A DNA stretch of 39,023 bases from a virus. Below the pieces are notes generated by a model that worked only from the letters and a program-made list of their open reading frames with translations, had not been told where the DNA came from and searched no databases. The stretch's first letter is position 1. Each line of letters begins with the position of its first letter. Location of the stretch: IMG/VR virus record IMGVR_UViG_3300042483_000198, positions 1 through 39,023 of that record; one strand, written 5' to 3'. Position numbers and translations under genes: made by a program. Shown here piece after piece: positions 3,585 through 36,977 of this stretch.

Positions 3585-4466
3585 ATGAAACCAATGTTAT
3601 GCAAGAAGGCTGACCCAGATAGGGTAGCCGCATTCCCCTCCATCTATGTGGAGTACAAACTCGATGGCATCCGTGTCCTCGCTCACGTCGACCTCCCCAA
3701 TAAGAAGGTCTCATTCACCTCCCGAGGTGGCAACGAGTTCCCTTCCATCCAGCACTTAGCCGAGCCTGTGATGGCATTCGCTGAACATCTGTATGGTAGT
3801 GACGCTTGCCTCGTCCTCGATGGCGAGGTCATCAGCGGCTCGTTCAATGACACCGTATCTCAAGTACGCAAGTTGAGGAAGTCCGCTACGGATGCCGTCT
3901 ATCACATCTTCGACCATCTGACCAAGGCCGAGTGGGATGCAGGACGTAGCGAGGACTACCTAGACGTTCGCCGTCATCACCTAGACGAAGCGTTCTATCG
4001 CTATCGTCAGCATGCTACGGTCAAGCACAAGGATAACATCACCGTCACGCACTGCGGTCAGAACGTCACGCAGGATGCTATCGACGAGATGTATGAGCAC
4101 AGCATCAAGGTAGGCTTAGAAGGACTCATCGTCAAGAACGCCAAGTCGCATTACATCTGCAATAAGCGTAGCAACCATTGGCTCAAGATGAAGGCCGAGG
4201 ATACGCTCGACCTGCCCATCATCGCAGTCATCAAGGGAGGAGGTAAGTACGCTCACTGTATGGGAGCCGTGGTAGTCCTCCACAACAACGTGGAAGTCAA
4301 TGTCGGGACTGGATTCGATGACAAGGATAGGGAGGCTATCTGGAATCTGTATGAGTCTAATCCAGAAGACATCATCGGCAGGCTCATCGAAGTCCGCTAT
4401 CAATACGAGACTCCTGCAGGCTCGCTACGCCATCCGTCCTTCTTCCGATTCCGTGACGACAAGTAA
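3585..4466 (+). CDS. ATP-dependent DNA ligase
   Basis: 293 aa, size of minimal phage ligases (T7-type) with an adenylation domain and an OB fold. Seals nicks using ATP. Motif I is KLDG at 25-28 with Lys25 the adenylated residue; motif III region LDGE at 78-81; motif IV EGLIVK at 179-184; motif V WLKMK at 199-203. The C-terminal 80 residues match the OB domain position. It has its own promoter (M1) and a G-poor leader. It lies in the plus-strand arm with small unknown genes rather than with the replication operon. Confident family call; NAD-dependent ligase is excluded by motif set and size. Confidence 0.93.
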   Translation: MKPMLCKKADPDRVAAFPSIYVEYKLDGIRVLAHVDLPNKKVSFTSRGGNEFPSIQHLAEPVMAFAEHLYGSDACLVLDGEVISGSFNDTVSQVRKLRKSATDAVYHIFDHLTKAEWDAGRSEDYLDVRRHHLDEAFYRYRQHATVKHKDNITVTHCGQNVTQDAIDEMYEHSIKVGLEGLIVKNAKSHYICNKRSNHWLKMKAEDTLDLPIIAVIKGGGKYAHCMGAVVVLHNNVEVNVGTGFDDKDREAIWNLYESNPEDIIGRLIEVRYQYETPAGSLRHPSFFRFRDDK

Positions 4467-28535: not shown

Positions 28536-30374
28536 TCAAGAATCCGATTCAGTCGTAGACTCCGTCTCCTCCTCGACCTCTGACTTTGCTGCTTCCGATG
28601 CTTCCTTGCCGATGAGCCTCAATCGGAGTGCGGCTAGGATGCTCATGACCTCACAATCCCATAAATGGTTCGCTCGTTTGTTGATTTGCACCCATTCTGG
28701 CTTCCCATTTGTCTTCCTAGAACGGTATTCCGAGGTCATTTGACGGCTATATTCCTCTCCAGCATCGACTGCATAGGTGTGCCTACCCGCCCTACGGAGC
28801 CGAGAAAGGGTGTCTTTTAGGGCTAAATTGGAGAATAAAAACACCTTACAAGTGCCTCCTACGAGCGAAATAGTGCGTGGTACAGACCATGGACGGAGGA
28901 AACTCTTGCTCATACCACCCACTACGGAGGTGTGACGGAACTCGTTTAGGTGCGAACCCTTCGTGGCGTTCCATTTATGCTTAATGCACTGCCGATACAC
29001 ATCATCCGTCTGGTCACCGCTATCCACAAAAACAAATGCTGGGTGGCACCCGCATTTGTCCTGAAAGTCCTTAACCTGCTCCCATGTGTTGACGTAAGCC
29101 CATTTGAAGAGGCGACTGGTACCGTCAATGGACCAAGAACGGACGAGACAGTAGAAACCTTGGCGTTGAACGTCCACAGTCATGACACGGATACGAGCGT
29201 GAGGCGTGACGGTGGTACCATCCTTGTCCTTGGGGAGTTGCCACCTGTAGCCGACCCGCCTGTCGTGATAAACGCCCTCATTATCCCAATCGTCGGTCAT
29301 CTTGTAGCCTCCCGACTGGAGTTCTACGTTGAAATCGTCTGGTTCATCCGACCAAGGGAGGGCTAACTGCTTCTGCTTAAAGATGCGTCTGGCATCCTCG
29401 TCACCATACATGTCGAGGGACTCCCGAGCGTGGAGATAGTCGACTGCCATCTTACCCCAAGACCGACAACATAGGGCATTCCAATGGAAGCCACGTTCCG
29501 TGGGGTCGGCATTGCCGTTCATCGAAACATACTCGCCTGTGGCGTTAAACTCCATCCGAGTCCCATCAGTATCCTCAAATAGGGTATCGCAGGAGATACA
29601 TTTGTACTTCGTCTCCTTGCCTACCTTGTTGTAATTGTAGGTATTCCCGTCCTTGAAATCCGTAGGGAAGATGACCTGCTCCCAGACATAGGGCTGACGG
29701 TAACCGCAGGCAGGACAACAGAATGTCCATTCCGAGCGGTCTGTGGAGTTGAAGGATTCGGTAAAGTCGTCCCCATCGTAGGCTCCCTGCGATAGGAAGA
29801 TACGCTTACCCAGCCACCCGAATGCGGTCACTCGAGCAGAGGCTTCAGCCATGTGACCCTTAGGCCATAGCCAGCACTCATCGCCTATGAGCCATCTGAT
29901 GGATCTCCGCTGGAGGTTCTTGAGATTGTGAGCACCTAGAGTCCACATCGTCATTCTGCGGAATTGGGTGGAGGTCCATTTGCTCTTTTCTGGGGAGATA
30001 ATCCGTTCCTTCGTCTCTGGCGTGTTATCCCATAGAGACTTTACTCGGTTGGTATGCCAGTCACGTGCATTGGCATCCGTATCCTGCAGTAGGAGGGTCG
30101 GACCCGGTGCTATGACTGGGATGTAGCAGGCTAGGGTCTCGGCTATCATGGACTTGCCCGACTGAATGGGAGCAGAGACGACTACGAGTCTGACCTCTGG
30201 ATGGACTGCGGCTCGGAGGACTGGGACTAACCATGGAGTCTCAGTGGCTCTGAAAGGACCGGGCATCGGACTGTATGGGACTGCCTTGATGTTCTGAGCC
30301 ATCCAAGTCACCACATCCTGCCCATCATCTGGGCGTAGGATACTACGGAGGGATGCTTCGAAAGAGTTATCCAC
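28536..30374 (-). CDS. terminase large subunit (GpA family)
   Basis: About 612 aa from the GTG at 30374, which gives the 8-base overlap GTGGATAA with the small subunit stop, the same geometry as other starts here; a TTG at 30389 is the alternative. Walker A APIQSGKS (about 68-75), Walker B RWLIGDE (160-166), and a zinc-binding CxxC pair (CCPACG near 220) with a second CxxC (CISC). Nuclease region includes VMTVDVQRQGFY and FVFVDSGDQTDD. It pumps DNA into the head and cuts concatemers. GpA-family enzymes of lambda type cut at cos sites; none was located. Confidence 0.92.
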   Translation of the reverse strand: MDNSFEASLRSILRPDDGQDVVTWMAQNIKAVPYSPMPGPFRATETPWLVPVLRAAVHPEVRLVVVSAPIQSGKSMIAETLACYIPVIAPGPTLLLQDTDANARDWHTNRVKSLWDNTPETKERIISPEKSKWTSTQFRRMTMWTLGAHNLKNLQRRSIRWLIGDECWLWPKGHMAEASARVTAFGWLGKRIFLSQGAYDGDDFTESFNSTDRSEWTFCCPACGYRQPYVWEQVIFPTDFKDGNTYNYNKVGKETKYKCISCDTLFEDTDGTRMEFNATGEYVSMNGNADPTERGFHWNALCCRSWGKMAVDYLHARESLDMYGDEDARRIFKQKQLALPWSDEPDDFNVELQSGGYKMTDDWDNEGVYHDRRVGYRWQLPKDKDGTTVTPHARIRVMTVDVQRQGFYCLVRSWSIDGTSRLFKWAYVNTWEQVKDFQDKCGCHPAFVFVDSGDQTDDVYRQCIKHKWNATKGSHLNEFRHTSVVGGMSKSFLRPWSVPRTISLVGGTCKVFLFSNLALKDTLSRLRRAGRHTYAVDAGEEYSRQMTSEYRSRKTNGKPEWVQINKRANHLWDCEVMSILAALRLRLIGKEASEAAKSEVEEETESTTESDS

Positions 30375-30984
30375 GAGCCTCGCCCTCAAGGTGCGACCAC
30401 TTCTCCATCATCTTGTTCTTGACCTCACGCCATGCGGATAGGGCTTTGGCTGGGTTAGCGGGGTTGGCTTTGGATGCCAATTCCAACTCCACCTTCTCCA
30501 AATCCTGCCGCATTTCGGCTATGATTTTACCGAATCTTTCTACGGCAAACTCCATCTTGATGAGTTCACGGCTCGTAACCTGCCTCGATAGAGCCTCACG
30601 CTGAAGGGAGATGAGGGTCTTTAGGTTCTTATCGTAGGTCTGGTAGAGGCGTGATTGCTGGGGTGAGCCGTCTTGGACTGCACGTAGGTATTGTGCTCGG
30701 CTGATGCGGACGAGTTGCGTCTGGCGGTTAACTAACTCAGCGAATGGGTCACCTTCGCCGTCTGGCGTGCCCGTAGCGTCGCTTTCAGGGGGTAGGGCGG
30801 CCTCTGCCCCTTCCTGTGGGATAGAGTGACCCCTAGGGGCAATACCGCTAGCCTCATGCCTACGGTTCCTCCACAACTCAGCATCCTCAACAGAAGTCAG
30901 AGGCATCCCAGCCGCCACTAACTGGGATACACGACCCTTACTGATACCCCATCGTTCAGCGAGTTCCTGTTGGCTGATAGACAC
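30367..30984 (-). CDS. terminase small subunit (Nu1-like)
   Basis: 205 aa from a GTG start. N-terminal HTH (SQQELAERWGISKGRVSQLV, residues 4-23) then a Gly/Pro/Ala-rich linker and long helices (YDKNLKTLISLQREALSRQV; RFGKIIAEMRQDLEKVELEL), as in Nu1-type recognition subunits that bind the packaging site. Placement before GpA-type large subunit supports this. The linker DNA contains a copy of GACGCTACG. Confidence 0.85.
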   Translation of the reverse strand: MSISQQELAERWGISKGRVSQLVAAGMPLTSVEDAELWRNRRHEASGIAPRGHSIPQEGAEAALPPESDATGTPDGEGDPFAELVNRQTQLVRISRAQYLRAVQDGSPQQSRLYQTYDKNLKTLISLQREALSRQVTSRELIKMEFAVERFGKIIAEMRQDLEKVELELASKANPANPAKALSAWREVKNKMMEKWSHLEGEARG

Positions 30985-30987
30985 CGA

Positions 30988-31515
30988 TTAGGACGGAGAG
31001 GTGTTCTTATCGTCTGGAATCCAAGACTTACCCCAGCCGACATTCTGGATGAGGTCGGACTTCGGTATGCCTAGGCGATTGGCGAGGCGATAGACTTCTT
31101 CACGCTCCATGCCCAGTCGCTCACAGATTTCCTCTACGGCCATCTTATCCTCAATCATCTTCTGGACGATTTCAGCCATCTTGAGGACTGCGTGAGTGCC
31201 TCTGGCTCGGTTGTGGCGTACGGTAGCCATCATCTGGCTAGCCATATCCTTAGGAGTGAGGAAGACTACAGGCACCAGCCCATCCGTAAGGCTATAGATT
31301 TCCTTGTGACCAGAGACGGTCCAGCGGTGAAAGCCATCCACGATGGTGTTATCCATATTGGCGACAATCGGCTGAGTCCATCCGTCCTCCTGTATCGAGA
31401 CCTTGAGGAGGTCTAGTTCTGGAGGGGCTACTGAGTTAGGATTATAATGATTCGGCTTGAGCGAATCACGATGAACCCAGCGGATGTTATTTAGCGGGTG
31501 GTTTACGTTTGCCAT
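30988..31515 (-). CDS. ibrB-like: IbrB-like ParB/sulfiredoxin-fold protein
   Basis: 175 aa. HYNPN (23-27) and VDGFHRW (59-65) are the hallmark ParB-N nucleotide-binding/nuclease motifs of the IbrB branch, followed by MATVRHNRARGTH and a C-terminal HTH-like part (MAVEEICERLGMEREEVYRLANR, split). In E. coli the IbrB family is paired with IbrA (a PAPS-reductase-like protein) and acts on expression of eib genes. Here it directly follows the IbrA-like gene (29-base overlap) and precedes the small terminase, so the pair is transcribed together. Biochemical activity of the family is unclear. Confidence 0.82.
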   Translation of the reverse strand: MANVNHPLNNIRWVHRDSLKPNHYNPNSVAPPELDLLKVSIQEDGWTQPIVANMDNTIVDGFHRWTVSGHKEIYSLTDGLVPVVFLTPKDMASQMMATVRHNRARGTHAVLKMAEIVQKMIEDKMAVEEICERLGMEREEVYRLANRLGIPKSDLIQNVGWGKSWIPDDKNTSPS

Positions 31516-32785
31516 ATAGAGTTTGTACTTGGGATGCAGTCAGACCCATCTTCTGCCACTTGAGGCGTTGAGTGACGGAGGCGTTAGCCTTGGTGCGGTC
31601 TTTGAGGTCACCCTTCTGGAGTATCTTACAGATGTAACGCCAAGAGTAGCCAGTCCATAAGTTTTCCTTCTCGTCCTCCATCGGGAGGTCGCTGTGTTTC
31701 TTATGGAGGGCTACGAGTTGGTCTATCGTACCGAGCATCTGGTCACGGAGGTCGCCCTCGTAGTAACCTGCGATGATGTATGAGTAATCCTTCCACGTCA
31801 GATGCGGAGGCTTCGTCTTGCTGAAGCGGACTCCATAGAGTTCCGTATTAGCGTAGCGAGCCGCAGTCGACACACCCGGTAGTCGCTTGCACATCTTATG
31901 CCACATCTCTGGGAATGCCTCAGCGTAGATGTGTAGTCCACGGAGCGGCTCCTCACCAAACGGAGGACATACACGCTGTTTAGCGAGTGCTCCACCGAGG
32001 GAATTGGTGGCGTTGTAGATGTCGTAGGTCTTGTTGTAATCGAGTTTCCATTCGTCTACCAACTTCCATACATCACGCTCGCTCCAATCGTAGATAGGGT
32101 AGGCATGCCAATAGCCCCTGCGGAGTTTGGCTATGTAGTTGTCGTTCTTCTTCTGGCAGACGATGCGACGACGGCGTAGGGATTCAGCGGCTCGGATGCC
32201 CTGTACGCAGATGACGTTACCGTATTTCTTATCAAACATCTCTGGTCCGAAGTCGGGTACGCCCATTCCGTCCTTGAATTTAGGGTGGGTAAAGATGCCA
32301 TAAGCGGGAGCCTCACGCACCCACAGATGCTTCTCAGTCGGGTCCCATGTCTTCCACCATGGCTTCTCATTTGAGCAGGCATTGCGGTGCGTAATCGGGA
32401 GGCAGAACCAGTCCAGATTAACGTCCCCTCGCTGGCGTACACGATCCACATACTCGATGGTAGGCGGGTGGATGGCTTCCTCATCAAAGAAGATAGCATG
32501 GACTGGGAGGCGATTCTTCTCAGCGGCTACCTTGAGTGCCAGATGGAGGACTGCCGTAGAGTCTTTGCCTCCGCTAAAGGAGACGACGACGTGGTCGCTG
32601 ATGTCGTAGAGATACCGCATCCGTTCCAATGCGGCGGTCAGCGTATCTACGTCCGTAAACTTCTGCTTACGAGTCTTAGGGATATACACCCTACCCTCGG
32701 CATCTACATGGCCTTCGCTAGTCTCTAGCGTGGTATCATCGGTGCCGACTTCCTCGTCTTCACCTATTTCTTCTGGGTCAATCAC
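31487..32785 (-). CDS. ibrA-like: IbrA-like PAPS-reductase-family PP-loop protein
   Basis: 432 aa from a GTG at 32785 whose last bases overlap the cupin stop (GTGA), as in other genes here; an ATG at 32875 would overlap by 94 bases. PP-loop SGGKDS at 71-76, then FDEEAIHPPTIEYVDRV, a C-rich loop THRNACSNEKPWW, and VICVQGIRAAESLRRRR plus YPIYDWSERDVWKLVDEW, which match IbrA/DUF3440-type proteins. The first 45 residues are acidic and disordered. Member of the ParB-cupin-PP-loop-ParB cassette. The enzyme probably adenylates a substrate; which one is unknown. Confidence 0.85.
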   Translation of the reverse strand: MIDPEEIGEDEEVGTDDTTLETSEGHVDAEGRVYIPKTRKQKFTDVDTLTAALERMRYLYDISDHVVVSFSGGKDSTAVLHLALKVAAEKNRLPVHAIFFDEEAIHPPTIEYVDRVRQRGDVNLDWFCLPITHRNACSNEKPWWKTWDPTEKHLWVREAPAYGIFTHPKFKDGMGVPDFGPEMFDKKYGNVICVQGIRAAESLRRRRIVCQKKNDNYIAKLRRGYWHAYPIYDWSERDVWKLVDEWKLDYNKTYDIYNATNSLGGALAKQRVCPPFGEEPLRGLHIYAEAFPEMWHKMCKRLPGVSTAARYANTELYGVRFSKTKPPHLTWKDYSYIIAGYYEGDLRDQMLGTIDQLVALHKKHSDLPMEDEKENLWTGYSWRYICKILQKGDLKDRTKANASVTQRLKWQKMGLTASQVQTLYGKRKPPAK

Positions 32786-33546
32786 GATAGTGCAGGAGGC
32801 AACCAAGGGTTGATGACATTCTCCTTGGACAGGTGCTTGGCCTCGGTGTTGTCGATAGACTTCCCATCTACCCAAGTACGGTTAATCATCGGATGGACTT
32901 CGTGCGTAGGTCCGAAGTCGGAGTCGGGATGGTAGGCGATAACGTCCATGTGGCTATGCTCCGTAGAGAAGCGGTGAACTCCATCCTTAGGGATGTGGAA
33001 GATAAGTCCCTTGACGAGTTTCGTATCGCCTATCGGAGTCCAGCACCAGCCCTCGCCACCTGCTACTGCACCGAAGCGAGTAGATGGATGAGTGTGCATC
33101 GTCTGCTCAATCTTGTCTGGGAAGTGCAGGTGATTGAAGCAGGGTTCGCCCTTGAGCATCGGAGGGACTAGGAGCGTATCAGAACAGCCATCAATGTAAC
33201 GCATGCGACCCTTCTTCTCGATGGGACCACCGACGTAGGCGTAGCCTAGGTAGCCGTAACGCTGAACCACGAACACGCATCCGAGGATGACTATATGGGC
33301 ACAGCCATTAGGGAGTTGGAAGAACTGCCCAGCACGGACGATTCCGTTCGGAGTCACCGCATGGCCGTGGACAACGTAACCATAACACGAACCACGCTCT
33401 GGGATACTAGCAACTTTCGGCTCATCCGTAATGAAGCCATAAAGAGCAGATGGCTGAGGTTCTTCATCTTCTCGCAGGAGTCCCCACGCCTCTGACCATG
33501 CTGCAAAGTGGGTGGTGTTTATTATCGGATTGCCGTATGTTTTCAT
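32782..33546 (-). CDS. bicupin-like metal-binding protein
   Basis: 254 aa, two beta-barrel-like halves. The first half has YVVHGHAVTPNGIVRAGQFF and HIVILGCVFVVQ. The second has HTHPSTRFGAVAGGEGWCW (151-169) with H151 and H153, a following IPKDGVHRF with H191, and a long DVIAYHPDSDFGPTHEVHP. This is the metal-binding cupin pattern (HxH, then H). It starts by ATGA overlap with the ParB gene and ends overlapping the IbrA-like start. A cupin oxidoreductase or isomerase is possible; the substrate is unknown. Cupin neighbours are unusual for phage ParB/PP-loop genes. Confidence 0.7.
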   Translation of the reverse strand: MKTYGNPIINTTHFAAWSEAWGLLREDEEPQPSALYGFITDEPKVASIPERGSCYGYVVHGHAVTPNGIVRAGQFFQLPNGCAHIVILGCVFVVQRYGYLGYAYVGGPIEKKGRMRYIDGCSDTLLVPPMLKGEPCFNHLHFPDKIEQTMHTHPSTRFGAVAGGEGWCWTPIGDTKLVKGLIFHIPKDGVHRFSTEHSHMDVIAYHPDSDFGPTHEVHPMINRTWVDGKSIDNTEAKHLSKENVINPWLPPALS

Positions 33547-34184
33547 TCTTTATTCGAATTGTAGAACTCACAGAGGAAGACGAGTGCATCTTCCATCTTC
33601 GGGAAGTTCTGAGACGCTTTGATTTCATTGAGCGTAGAGATAACGAGCAGTTTGGTCGTATGCTGACAGACCAAGGAGAAGTCAGAGTATTGGTCATCGG
33701 TGACCCTAGGTCCATGCTCCTTATCGGCACCGCCTGCTCGCTGTTCTGCCTCGGATGCTTCATGGAGGAGTTCATTCAAATACTCCTCAGTAAATCCGGT
33801 AAGGTTGAGTGCTATCTTACCCTCGTCTTTGATGGCCTGCAGTTCCATCCGTAGCATGTCTTCATCCCATCCACCACCGATTTCAGTAAGGCGGTTATCA
33901 GCGATGACGTACGCACGTCTCTTAGCATCATCCAGATGCGAAAGACGGATGCACGGAACCTTATCGAACCCGATACGCTTTGCGGCATCGAGTCGTCCGT
34001 GACCAGCGATGACTCCATTGTCGTCGTCGATAAGGACTGGGTTATTGAAACCGAACTCCTTGATGGAGGATACTATCTTCTCCAACTGCATCTCGCTATG
34101 CTTTCTGGAGTTGTTTTCGTACGGGATTAAGGCCTCGGGAGATATGTATTCTACCGTGAACGACTTCAATGCAGGATGGCTCAT
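33543..34184 (-). CDS. ParB-N domain nuclease-like protein
   Basis: 213 aa. YENNSRKHS (22-30), VIAGHGRLDAAKRIGFD (58-74) and a downstream AYVIADNRLTEIGGGWD are the ParB/Srx motif set typical of phage ParB-like proteins often found with DNA methyltransferases. No methyltransferase motif follows in this protein; the C-terminal third is unrecognised. First gene of the cassette, with a candidate promoter at 34202-34230 upstream. It may bind or nick DNA. Confidence 0.8.
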   Translation of the reverse strand: MSHPALKSFTVEYISPEALIPYENNSRKHSEMQLEKIVSSIKEFGFNNPVLIDDDNGVIAGHGRLDAAKRIGFDKVPCIRLSHLDDAKRRAYVIADNRLTEIGGGWDEDMLRMELQAIKDEGKIALNLTGFTEEYLNELLHEASEAEQRAGGADKEHGPRVTDDQYSDFSLVCQHTTKLLVISTLNEIKASQNFPKMEDALVFLCEFYNSNKE

Positions 34185-35359: not shown

Positions 35360-36181
35360 TCAGTCGACTATGGTATCCGAGCGGATAGCGAGCGTGGTGA
35401 TGCAGTCGGGTAGTCCCATCCAAACATCGTTCTTAACGCACACCGATAGGAGTTTCATCAGACCTCTATACTCCTTGTACGTCTTTGCTATGTCATCCTT
35501 GTGGATTTCGTAGATGGCGATGGAGTTCGGCTTAGCCTTCTCACAACAGGCGAAGTAGAAGTGACTGATGTTCATACCGTTCTGACGAGCGAGTTCCAAG
35601 TAGATGACGGCCTGCATATCATAACGATACTGCCATACGGTCTTCTTGAACTGACGTGGACTAGGCACATCGCCCATCGACTTGAGGTCGAGGATGAAGT
35701 TGTCTCCGATGAAATCGGGTCTGCCCTTCAATCCCACGTTAGGATACTCTTCATCACGGCCTTCCAATCGGCACTCAATAGCACCTAGCATGGAGTTCGC
35801 CTTACCATTAGGACGAGCGAGTAGCCCCATCAGCATGCTGTTATTGCGAGCCGAAGTAGCCATACGCTGTACGGTATCCCAATCCTCTTGGTCGATAGCG
35901 ACTGCCTTGTCCTGCTGTATCTGCTCCATGAACTTGGCGTACTCTTCTTTGCCTACGTTAGTCCTGCGGTTGATTTCGGGCATCAGCCTCACCTGCTTTA
36001 CGAACTTTTCTGGCTCGAGGATAGCAGTATGGAATGCCGTACCGAGCATCATAGCGGACGTAGTCTCGCTCGGCTCATCTAACCAAGCCTTGTAGTGAGC
36101 AGGGCTATCACCCAATGAGACCAGACCGCCCTTGCTGATGCGATAGACCCCATCATCCGTCTTAGGATTAGAATGGGACAT
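35360..36181 (-). CDS. RecE-like PD-(D/E)XK exonuclease
   Basis: 273 aa. GTAFHTAILEPEKF (47-60) with His51, Glu136, KGRPDFI (152-158) with Asp156, then LDLK (164-167) and QYRYDMQAVIYLEL (184-197) are the lambda-exonuclease/RecE (DUF3799-type) motif set. Digests one strand of linear duplex DNA to make single strands for annealing. Its start is 14 bases inside the Rad52-like gene end; coupling of exonuclease and annealase is the standard phage two-component recombination system. Confidence 0.88.
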   Translation of the reverse strand: MSHSNPKTDDGVYRISKGGLVSLGDSPAHYKAWLDEPSETTSAMMLGTAFHTAILEPEKFVKQVRLMPEINRRTNVGKEEYAKFMEQIQQDKAVAIDQEDWDTVQRMATSARNNSMLMGLLARPNGKANSMLGAIECRLEGRDEEYPNVGLKGRPDFIGDNFILDLKSMGDVPSPRQFKKTVWQYRYDMQAVIYLELARQNGMNISHFYFACCEKAKPNSIAIYEIHKDDIAKTYKEYRGLMKLLSVCVKNDVWMGLPDCITTLAIRSDTIVD

Positions 36182-36977
36182 CGTCAGAAGTCTCCTCCTT
36201 GTTGTTATTGAGCAGGGTCTTAGCGGCTAACTTCAACGCCCTATCCTTATCAGCGAACTTACCTTCCTTGACCTCATAGGTATTCGCTACCCACTCGATA
36301 GCACGCTTGTCGACTTGGAGCACCTCGCCCATCGTCTTACCCTTATGCTTACCGAATGGGTAAGTCATGTTAGTAGCGTCATCGAGGCTCATCGTGCCAG
36401 TCGTCACCGGCTGGGCTGATTGGGTCGCTTTGTAGGCTGGCTTGGGGCTGGGAGCCGCAGGCTGGCTGTAATCGACCATAGGCTCGGCTGGCGTAGCGTC
36501 ATCGAGGCGAGGCGGGTCCCAGCGGAATCGGCTACCGTCCTTCGTCTTACCGAAGTTGGCTCCTCGGTCTGTGACTACTGCCCACGTCTCTGGCATGTCA
36601 TATAGGTAACGCCCGATGCCGAGTAGGACTGCGGCTCGCTTCATCGCACCAGACGCTGCCGTCTTAAAAGGGTCGATGTCGCTTTCCTTATCCAATGGCA
36701 CCTCGCATGAGCCAGTCACCTTGCGGTCACGCTCACCTTCCCATACACGGAGTTGGACTACGCATACGGCCTTATTGCCAATCTGCTGATAGGCTTCCTG
36801 TTGGTCCCAGCCTTCTGGGAATACGCTGTCGAGTCGCTCCATGATAGTGCGATTGTCGACGTAGGCTAATACCCTAGCCCAGATAGTACCGTCTTCCTTC
36901 TTACCGCACGATTGGACACGCCATTCTAGCCTGTCTGCTTCAATCGGGGCTTTTAGTAACTGCAACTTGCTACTCAT
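36168..36977 (-). CDS. Rad52-like single-strand annealing protein with extra domain and SSB-like tip
   Basis: 269 aa. Residues 35-130 fit the Rad52/Sak fold (LAYVDNRTIMERLDSVFP; QLRVWEGERDRKVTGS; GAMKRAAVLLGIGRYLYDMP). A Pro/Ala-rich linker (160-195) follows, then YPFGKHKGKTMGEVLQVDKR (206-225) resembling DUF3820, and the protein ends SDDVPF, like the acidic tip of bacterial SSB that recruits repair proteins. It anneals complementary strands produced by the adjacent exonuclease. The fused second domain and tip are unusual. The linker contains GACGCTACGCC at DNA level. Confidence 0.85.
   Translation of the reverse strand: MSSKLQLLKAPIEADRLEWRVQSCGKKEDGTIWARVLAYVDNRTIMERLDSVFPEGWDQQEAYQQIGNKAVCVVQLRVWEGERDRKVTGSCEVPLDKESDIDPFKTAASGAMKRAAVLLGIGRYLYDMPETWAVVTDRGANFGKTKDGSRFRWDPPRLDDATPAEPMVDYSQPAAPSPKPAYKATQSAQPVTTGTMSLDDATNMTYPFGKHKGKTMGEVLQVDKRAIEWVANTYEVKEGKFADKDRALKLAAKTLLNNNKEETSDDVPF

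Follow-up and report, generated by a model that had tools for sequence, protein, structure and literature searches.

IbrA and IbrB have been known for more than 20 years, but only as "co-activators" or under the labels phosphoadenosine phosphosulfate (PAPS) reductase and ParB. The IbrAB pair of Escherichia coli ECOR-9 activates prophage eib genes (Sandt 2002, as cited in PMC10434257). Chemically defined DNA modifications have been described for other phage gene sets: dPreQ0 stands at about 28% of the G in Rosebush, a phage of the Faze9 group (PMC6884629), and a C5-methyltransferase and an asparagine-synthetase-like ligase make 5-glycylcarboxymethylcytosine in DNA, a pathway for which the authors noted many ParBc neighbours (PMC12783734). 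Here we analyse the IMG/VR virus record IMGVR_UViG_3300042483_000198 (39,023 bases, one strand; this whole stretch is called the window), in which a ParB-N protein (P0001), a two-barrel cupin or bicupin (P0002), an IbrA-type PP-loop protein (P0003) and an IbrB-type ParB-fold protein (P0004) precede the terminase genes. This cassette is real and widespread, and the cupin is a new part of it; literature searches turned up no account of a cassette that combines cupin, ParB and PAPS reductase. Based on the available evidence, it is probable that the cassette hypermodifies phage DNA, as a bicupin variant of IbrA-IbrB located in an exchangeable slot between ParB-N and terminase.

The window belongs to a tailed phage, whose minus strand encodes the terminase, the portal, a head protease and further head and tail proteins (Pfam and PHROG searches). 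The order on that strand is ParB-N, bicupin, IbrA, IbrB, terminase small subunit (TerS) and terminase large subunit (TerL), with overlaps of 4 bases between ParB-N and bicupin, 4 between bicupin and IbrA and 29 between IbrA and IbrB; TerS (GTG start, 30984) begins 3 bases past the end of IbrB and overlaps TerL. The original prediction, made from the letters alone, had placed four open reading frames at the coordinates of Table 1 with 4- to 29-base overlaps, had read SGGKDS, VDGFHR and HTH...H motifs in their products and had taken the genes for one functional unit. Coordinates, overlaps and motifs are borne out, VDGFHR and the HxH...H histidines being invariant in the alignments; for the functional unit, the neighbourhood check on IMG/VR loci gave the counts reported below.

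Neither the window's bicupin nor that of locus L017 matched any of 50,697 phage records when searched directly, and P0002 or P0003 as single queries retrieved no relative from IMG/VR; for this reason IbrB alone was used as bait in IMG/VR, a choice that does not favour the finding of a cupin. The best 80 loci, with 60–90% identity, cover one part of IbrB diversity. In 59 of the loci the sequence upstream of IbrB extends for at least 2.3 kb; all of these have IbrA and the bicupin (59/59 each) and 57 have ParB, and in a non-redundant set (85% IbrA identity, 3 kb upstream) the bicupin was found in 28/28 and ParB in 27/28. Recurrence in dozens of diverged contigs puts the cassette far beyond chance, and the view that the four genes are one functional unit is strongly supported. 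The gene order is alike in nearly all loci, the cupin following IbrB in five (L025, L031, L032, L059, and L060). Some loci carry inserts: cupin and IbrA may be separated by a DNA methyltransferase or by a second PP-loop protein of the SGGKDS type, and ParB and cupin by a short-chain dehydrogenase. The first large gene 3' of IbrB was found in 65 loci and fell by similarity into one group of 62 loci and one of 3; the families matched by the 28 scanned representatives are those of various terminase large subunits, indicating that the cassette keeps its place before unrelated terminases.

Two further genes were observed within these loci. A protein of about 165 residues is encoded between IbrA and IbrB in L052 (5493-5990), L040 (5484-5993) and about 20 other loci; it had no significant Pfam or PHROG match and is a possible further cassette enzyme. 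A SET-domain protein lies between ParB and IbrA in the cupin-last cassette of L031 (4483-4842).

The strongest clue to the function of the cassette is the slot it occupies. In the best 80 loci related to P0001, the ParB is fused to an N6/N4 DNA methyltransferase in 67, typically followed by terminase genes, and in each of the 11 loci where ParB is a gene of its own, the next gene downstream is of a DNA-modification type. The latter comprise a C5 DNA methylase followed by an asparagine synthase, one unassigned gene and TerL (L082); TGT, QueC and GTP cyclohydrolase (L086); QueC and TGT (L138 and L144); a gene of the HMC-glucosyltransferase family (L093, L108, and L120); a Mom-like DNA modification protein (L149 and L159); and a member of the Tet/JBP-type oxygenase family (L133 by Pfam, L145 via the shared PHROG6059). 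The window shows the same arrangement, with a P0001-type ParB upstream, coupled genes and the terminase downstream, and L086 and L133 have the homologous slot: L086 shares 57% identity with the window in ParB, 50% in TerS and 49% in TerL, and L133 shares 45% in TerS/TerL. Since these terminases are related to those of the window, the same slot carries other modification genes there.

Actinophages show a comparable exchange. IbrA-IbrB lies between ParB and terminase in the cluster-B mycobacteriophage Akoma, and together with a methyltransferase in the actinophage Laroye, while the slot holds DpdA-QueC-QueD-QueE-FolE in the mycobacteriophages Faze9 and Laurie, likewise of cluster B, DpdA and Que genes in Typha, a gene annotated as queuine tRNA-ribosyltransferase with an amino acid:DNA transferase (ADDT) and an Asp/Arg hydroxylase in LilMcDreamy, a PHROG6059 gene in ChrisnMich and methyltransferases in the Gordonia phage Evaa. 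Because related phages carry DNA-modifying enzymes at this place, the unit would put a chemical modification on phage DNA, and DNA would be its most likely substrate as the slot holds DNA-modification genes in other phages.

Several other loci combine genes of these types. In L145 (2462-4822) TerS and TerL are separated by an IbrB of 380 residues and IbrA, and a Tet/JBP-like gene of PHROG6059 lies upstream together with ParB, which makes two modification-type modules in one terminase region. PHROG6059 has members in L133 (673-1503), L145 (676-1524) and L255 (785-1753) and is labelled queuine tRNA-ribosyltransferase; this label looks doubtful, as the member in L133 has an above-cut-off match to Tet_JBP (PF12851, 37.7 bits). 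Taranis-type gut phages (L390:69-1067, L402, L384, and others) encode a membrane protein of about 330 residues, annotated as a transporter in FP_Taranis, which perhaps takes up a modification precursor, and further a second PAPS_reduct-type PP-loop protein, ParB, IbrA, IbrB and then TerS-TerL. The Fusobacterium phage phiFN37 (L252, 3707-10483) carries IbrA-IbrB and, 3 kb on, ParB, a queuine tRNA-ribosyltransferase and a queuosine precursor transporter.

IbrA (P0003) matches PF01507 (1.2e-19) and PF11922 (DUF3440, 2.1e-11), both above the cut-off, as well as PHROG2302 (6.8e-83). Its predicted model is nearest to FAD synthase and CysD (Z 14–15 over about 170 residues, root-mean-square deviation about 3 Å), enzymes that both transfer the AMP part of ATP. 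This structural proximity and the motif S[GA]GKDS, kept in 63 of the 72 IbrA sequences, make the adenylation of a DNA group or of a donor the probable activity of IbrA. The ECGLH active-site motif of CysH is absent from all 72. Assignment to CysH was rejected, as the scores were 23.8 vs 165.1 for TIGR00434 and 36.3 vs 154 for PRK02090 and ECGLH is missing, and so was assignment to DndC (TIGR03183, 36.5 vs a cut-off of 290.4).

IbrB (P0004) is the most conserved protein of the cassette: in an alignment of 28 diverse sequences the mean column identity is 66%, which argues for catalysis or tight binding more than for loose regulation. VDGFHRW is invariant in it, and its DGFHR is a putative counterpart of the nucleotide-binding loops of the ParB/Srx superfamily. 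In Pfam it scores under the ParB_N gathering cut-off (21.5 vs 26.3 bits) and shows weak helix-turn-helix matches. P0003 and P0004 have the composition of an IbrA/IbrB pair, a PAPS_reduct PP-loop and DUF3440 protein followed by an IbrB-type ParB, and the family profiles built here find the annotated IbrA (1e-69) and IbrB (9.5e-45) of PhiR5_2. The ParB-N assignment of P0001 also stood, its PF02195 match lying above the cut-off. This protein matches, in addition, PHROG498 (ParB-DNA methyltransferase, 4e-48), and a PADLOC MTase_II match (5e-37) spans its ParB part; genes of this type stand at the head of the modification slot.

The bicupin gave a sub-threshold Cupin_2 match in Pfam, no PHROG match and, in a PDB profile search, chance-level matches only. 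The predicted cupin was nonetheless confirmed as a two-barrel protein: an AlphaFold2 model built from 37 sequences (predicted local distance difference test score, pLDDT, 85.8) aligns over residues 6-241 to two-barrel cupins with Z 14–17.6, the best matches being DR1152/DUF861 (Z 17.6) and ureidoglycine aminohydrolase (16.7), followed by BacB (15.5) and salicylate dioxygenase (15.3). These fold matches reveal nothing about the reaction of the bicupin. In the C-terminal barrel H151 and H153 (HxH) and H191 are invariant in the 37 sequences, so that both the HxH of cupin motif 1 and the histidine of motif 2 are conserved, and Arg157, also invariant, stands where cupins usually carry a Glu ligand; the residues are those of a putative three-histidine metal site. 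A GTDB scan with the bicupin profile returned many cellular relatives, adjoining asparagine synthases or elsewhere, and clear phage-type cassettes only in L162, L180, L199 (whose contig ends in IbrA) and L210. The asparagine synthase neighbours occur in L168, L183 and L221 (Methylococcales, Frankia, Verrucomicrobia), where the cupin is again accompanied by an enzyme of the PP-loop type.

In a quick tree of 56 IbrA rows, with some long branches, a branch with an SH-aLRT of 99 sets all bicupin-linked IbrAs, including three in bacterial metagenome-assembled genomes, apart from the others, and the IbrAs accompanied by an ectoine-synthase-type cupin (XCL1123, L340, and L341) form another group (SH-aLRT 100). 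The fewest changes that explain cupin gain on this tree are two, so that cupins joined IbrAB at least twice; no bicupin was found in the Taranis/XCL-type loci (0/82). Two separate recruitments may be counted in favour of a modification module, as may the fact that the genes added to the cassette are enzymes (second PP-loop proteins, the short-chain dehydrogenase, methyltransferases).

Altogether, a working model can be proposed. The ParB-N protein would bring the enzymes to DNA or supply site choice, as methyltransferase fusions elsewhere suggest; IbrA, using ATP through its SGGKDS PP-loop, would adenylate a DNA base, a backbone group or a donor; IbrB, placed in its family by the profile matches, may be an NTP-dependent DNA-binding or phosphotransfer partner of IbrA; and the bicupin could subsequently oxidise, rearrange or trim the added group. 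Steps taken in this conjectural order would yield modified virion DNA resisting host nucleases. The wider hypothesis that the cassette makes an undescribed DNA modification by PP-loop adenylation and a three-histidine bicupin, many viral "cysH" genes being parts of such cassettes, is put forward tentatively, its chances being close to even.

Table 1. Cassette, terminase and neighbouring genes of the window.
Feature	Position	Strand	Evidence
ParB-N protein (P0001), 213 aa	33543..34184	-	PF02195 4.4e-6, PHROG620 5e-53
Bicupin (P0002), 254 aa	32782..33546	-	AlphaFold2 fold; structural matches; invariant histidines
IbrA-type PP-loop protein (P0003), SGGKDS + DUF3440, 432 aa, GTG start	31487..32785	-	PF01507, PF11922, PHROG2302
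IbrB-type ParB-fold protein (P0004), VDGFHRW, 175 aa	30988..31515	-	PHROG2159 9.4e-66
Terminase small subunit	30367..30984	-	PHROG57 3.9e-8
Terminase large subunit, GpA type	28536..30389	-	PF05876 1.3e-30, PF20454 1.3e-19, PHROG15 8.4e-68
ATP-dependent DNA ligase	3585-4466	+	
Exonuclease VIII-like + Erf/Rad52-type annealing pair, upstream of the cassette	35360-36977	-	

Other functions have to be weighed against DNA modification. The original prediction had offered control of host functions as an alternative, which would correspond to the co-activator label of IbrAB. In a regulatory module, IbrA and IbrB would co-activate (pro)phage genes, with the ParB-N protein and the cupin as sensor or DNA-binding parts that time late or terminase expression. 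Such a role would agree with the eib activation reported for ECOR-9, with the ability of both ParB-type proteins to bind DNA, with the weak helix-turn-helix matches of IbrB and with a cassette that runs nearly gapless into the terminase genes; it is, however, unlikely, given the strong conservation of the catalytic-type SGGKDS motif and of the metal-type cupin residues, the extra enzymes that join the cassette and the fact that in related phages the unit is replaced by modification enzymes and not by regulators. The proximity to the terminase had also led the original prediction to propose a coupling to packaging. The position itself is real and general, but it is common to all kinds of modification genes and so points to a slot for modification more than to a role in packaging. 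A factor that marks or processes pac/cos together with terminase, any modification being local, appears rather improbable: although the first large downstream gene is terminase-like, of different terminase families, and L145 has its IbrB-IbrA between TerS and TerL, genome-wide systems such as dPreQ0 use the same position, some IbrAB pairs lie far from the terminase, and terminase relatives do without the cassette.

The automatic label of PHROG2302, phosphoadenosine phosphosulfate reductase, and reports of viral "cysH" (PMC8725595) invite the idea that IbrA is a PAPS reductase aiding host sulfate assimilation. We consider this very improbable, since both CysH models score far below their cut-offs, 63 of the 72 IbrAs keep S[GA]GKDS and all 72 lack ECGLH, and IbrA is constantly paired with ParB-type genes and terminase, not with sulfur genes. 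Another claim of the original prediction fares unevenly: the slot context supports nucleic acid modification well, but not specifically the sulfur or backbone chemistry suggested with it, IbrA falling far below the DndC and CysH family cut-offs. Finally, the ParB_N domain and ParB labels could be read as plasmid-like partition, with cupin and IbrA as bystanders, an explanation that hardly deserves credence: the partition family ParB/RepB/Spo0J (TIGR00180, cut-off 58.45) scores 30.2 for P0001 and 13.8 for P0004, no ParA was detected among the neighbour genes scanned with Pfam and PHROG, and partition gives no reason for the 59/59 co-occurrence with cupin and IbrA.

Some observations weigh against a DNA hypermodification module. 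Nine of the 72 IbrA sequences are without the exact S[GA]GKDS string. Most phages with a window-related TerL are without the cassette, which is therefore optional, and most phages of this terminase-relatives survey have no ParB slot at all, which leaves L086, L133 and the actinophages as the basis for inferring a swap. The IbrAB pairs of FCL-2, Pika, AQ113, PhiR5_2 and phiFN37 are not directly upstream of the terminase. The assignment draws on genomic context rather than on the chemistry of IbrAB phage DNA, and an argument from neighbouring genes can point to the wrong substrate. Furthermore, activation of eib fits regulation as well as modification, and DNA modification leaves this phenotype unexplained, though without conflict with it. 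The placement of IbrAB in a slot that otherwise holds proven or recognisable DNA-modification genes makes its function directly and cheaply testable. If the hypermodification hypothesis is true, phage anti-restriction would gain a new enzyme set and possibly a new DNA chemistry, and some of the viral cysH genes counted as "auxiliary metabolic genes" may have been misinterpreted.

Among the described systems, the closest are the IbrA-IbrB pairs (COG3969/DUF3440 plus ParB) of the Escherichia phage PhiR5_2, the Faecalibacterium phage FP_Taranis and Akoma, which have the same two proteins, mostly in A-B order and with short overlaps; Akoma and Taranis, like the window, have ParB upstream and terminase downstream, and the window differs in its bicupin between ParB and IbrA. 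The dPreQ0 cassette of the Rosebush-group mycobacteriophages uses the same ParB-terminase slot and includes a PP-loop enzyme, QueC, but its enzymes are others (DpdA-QueC-QueD-QueE-FolE) and its product is known (PMC6884629). In the 5-glycylcarboxymethylcytosine pathway (CmoA-CmoX-CmoY, phage S-B43) ParBc is often nearby and an ATP-dependent, AMP-forming ligase acts on the DNA base (PMC12783734), whereas the window cassette has no C5-methyltransferase or asparagine synthetase. DNA phosphorothioation resembles it in that DndC belongs, like IbrA, to the PAPS-reductase-like PP-loop family and works beside the ParB-superfamily protein DndB (PMC10853773); in the window IbrA falls below the DndC cut-off and DndB, DndD and DndE are absent from the cassette genes. 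The Pseudoalteromonas phage XCL1123, L340 and L341 share with the window a cupin inserted in the IbrAB cassette; theirs, however, is a single-domain Ectoine_synth cupin (PF06339, 1.7e-35), unrelated to the bicupin, located between IbrA and IbrB and accompanied by an IbrA of another group.

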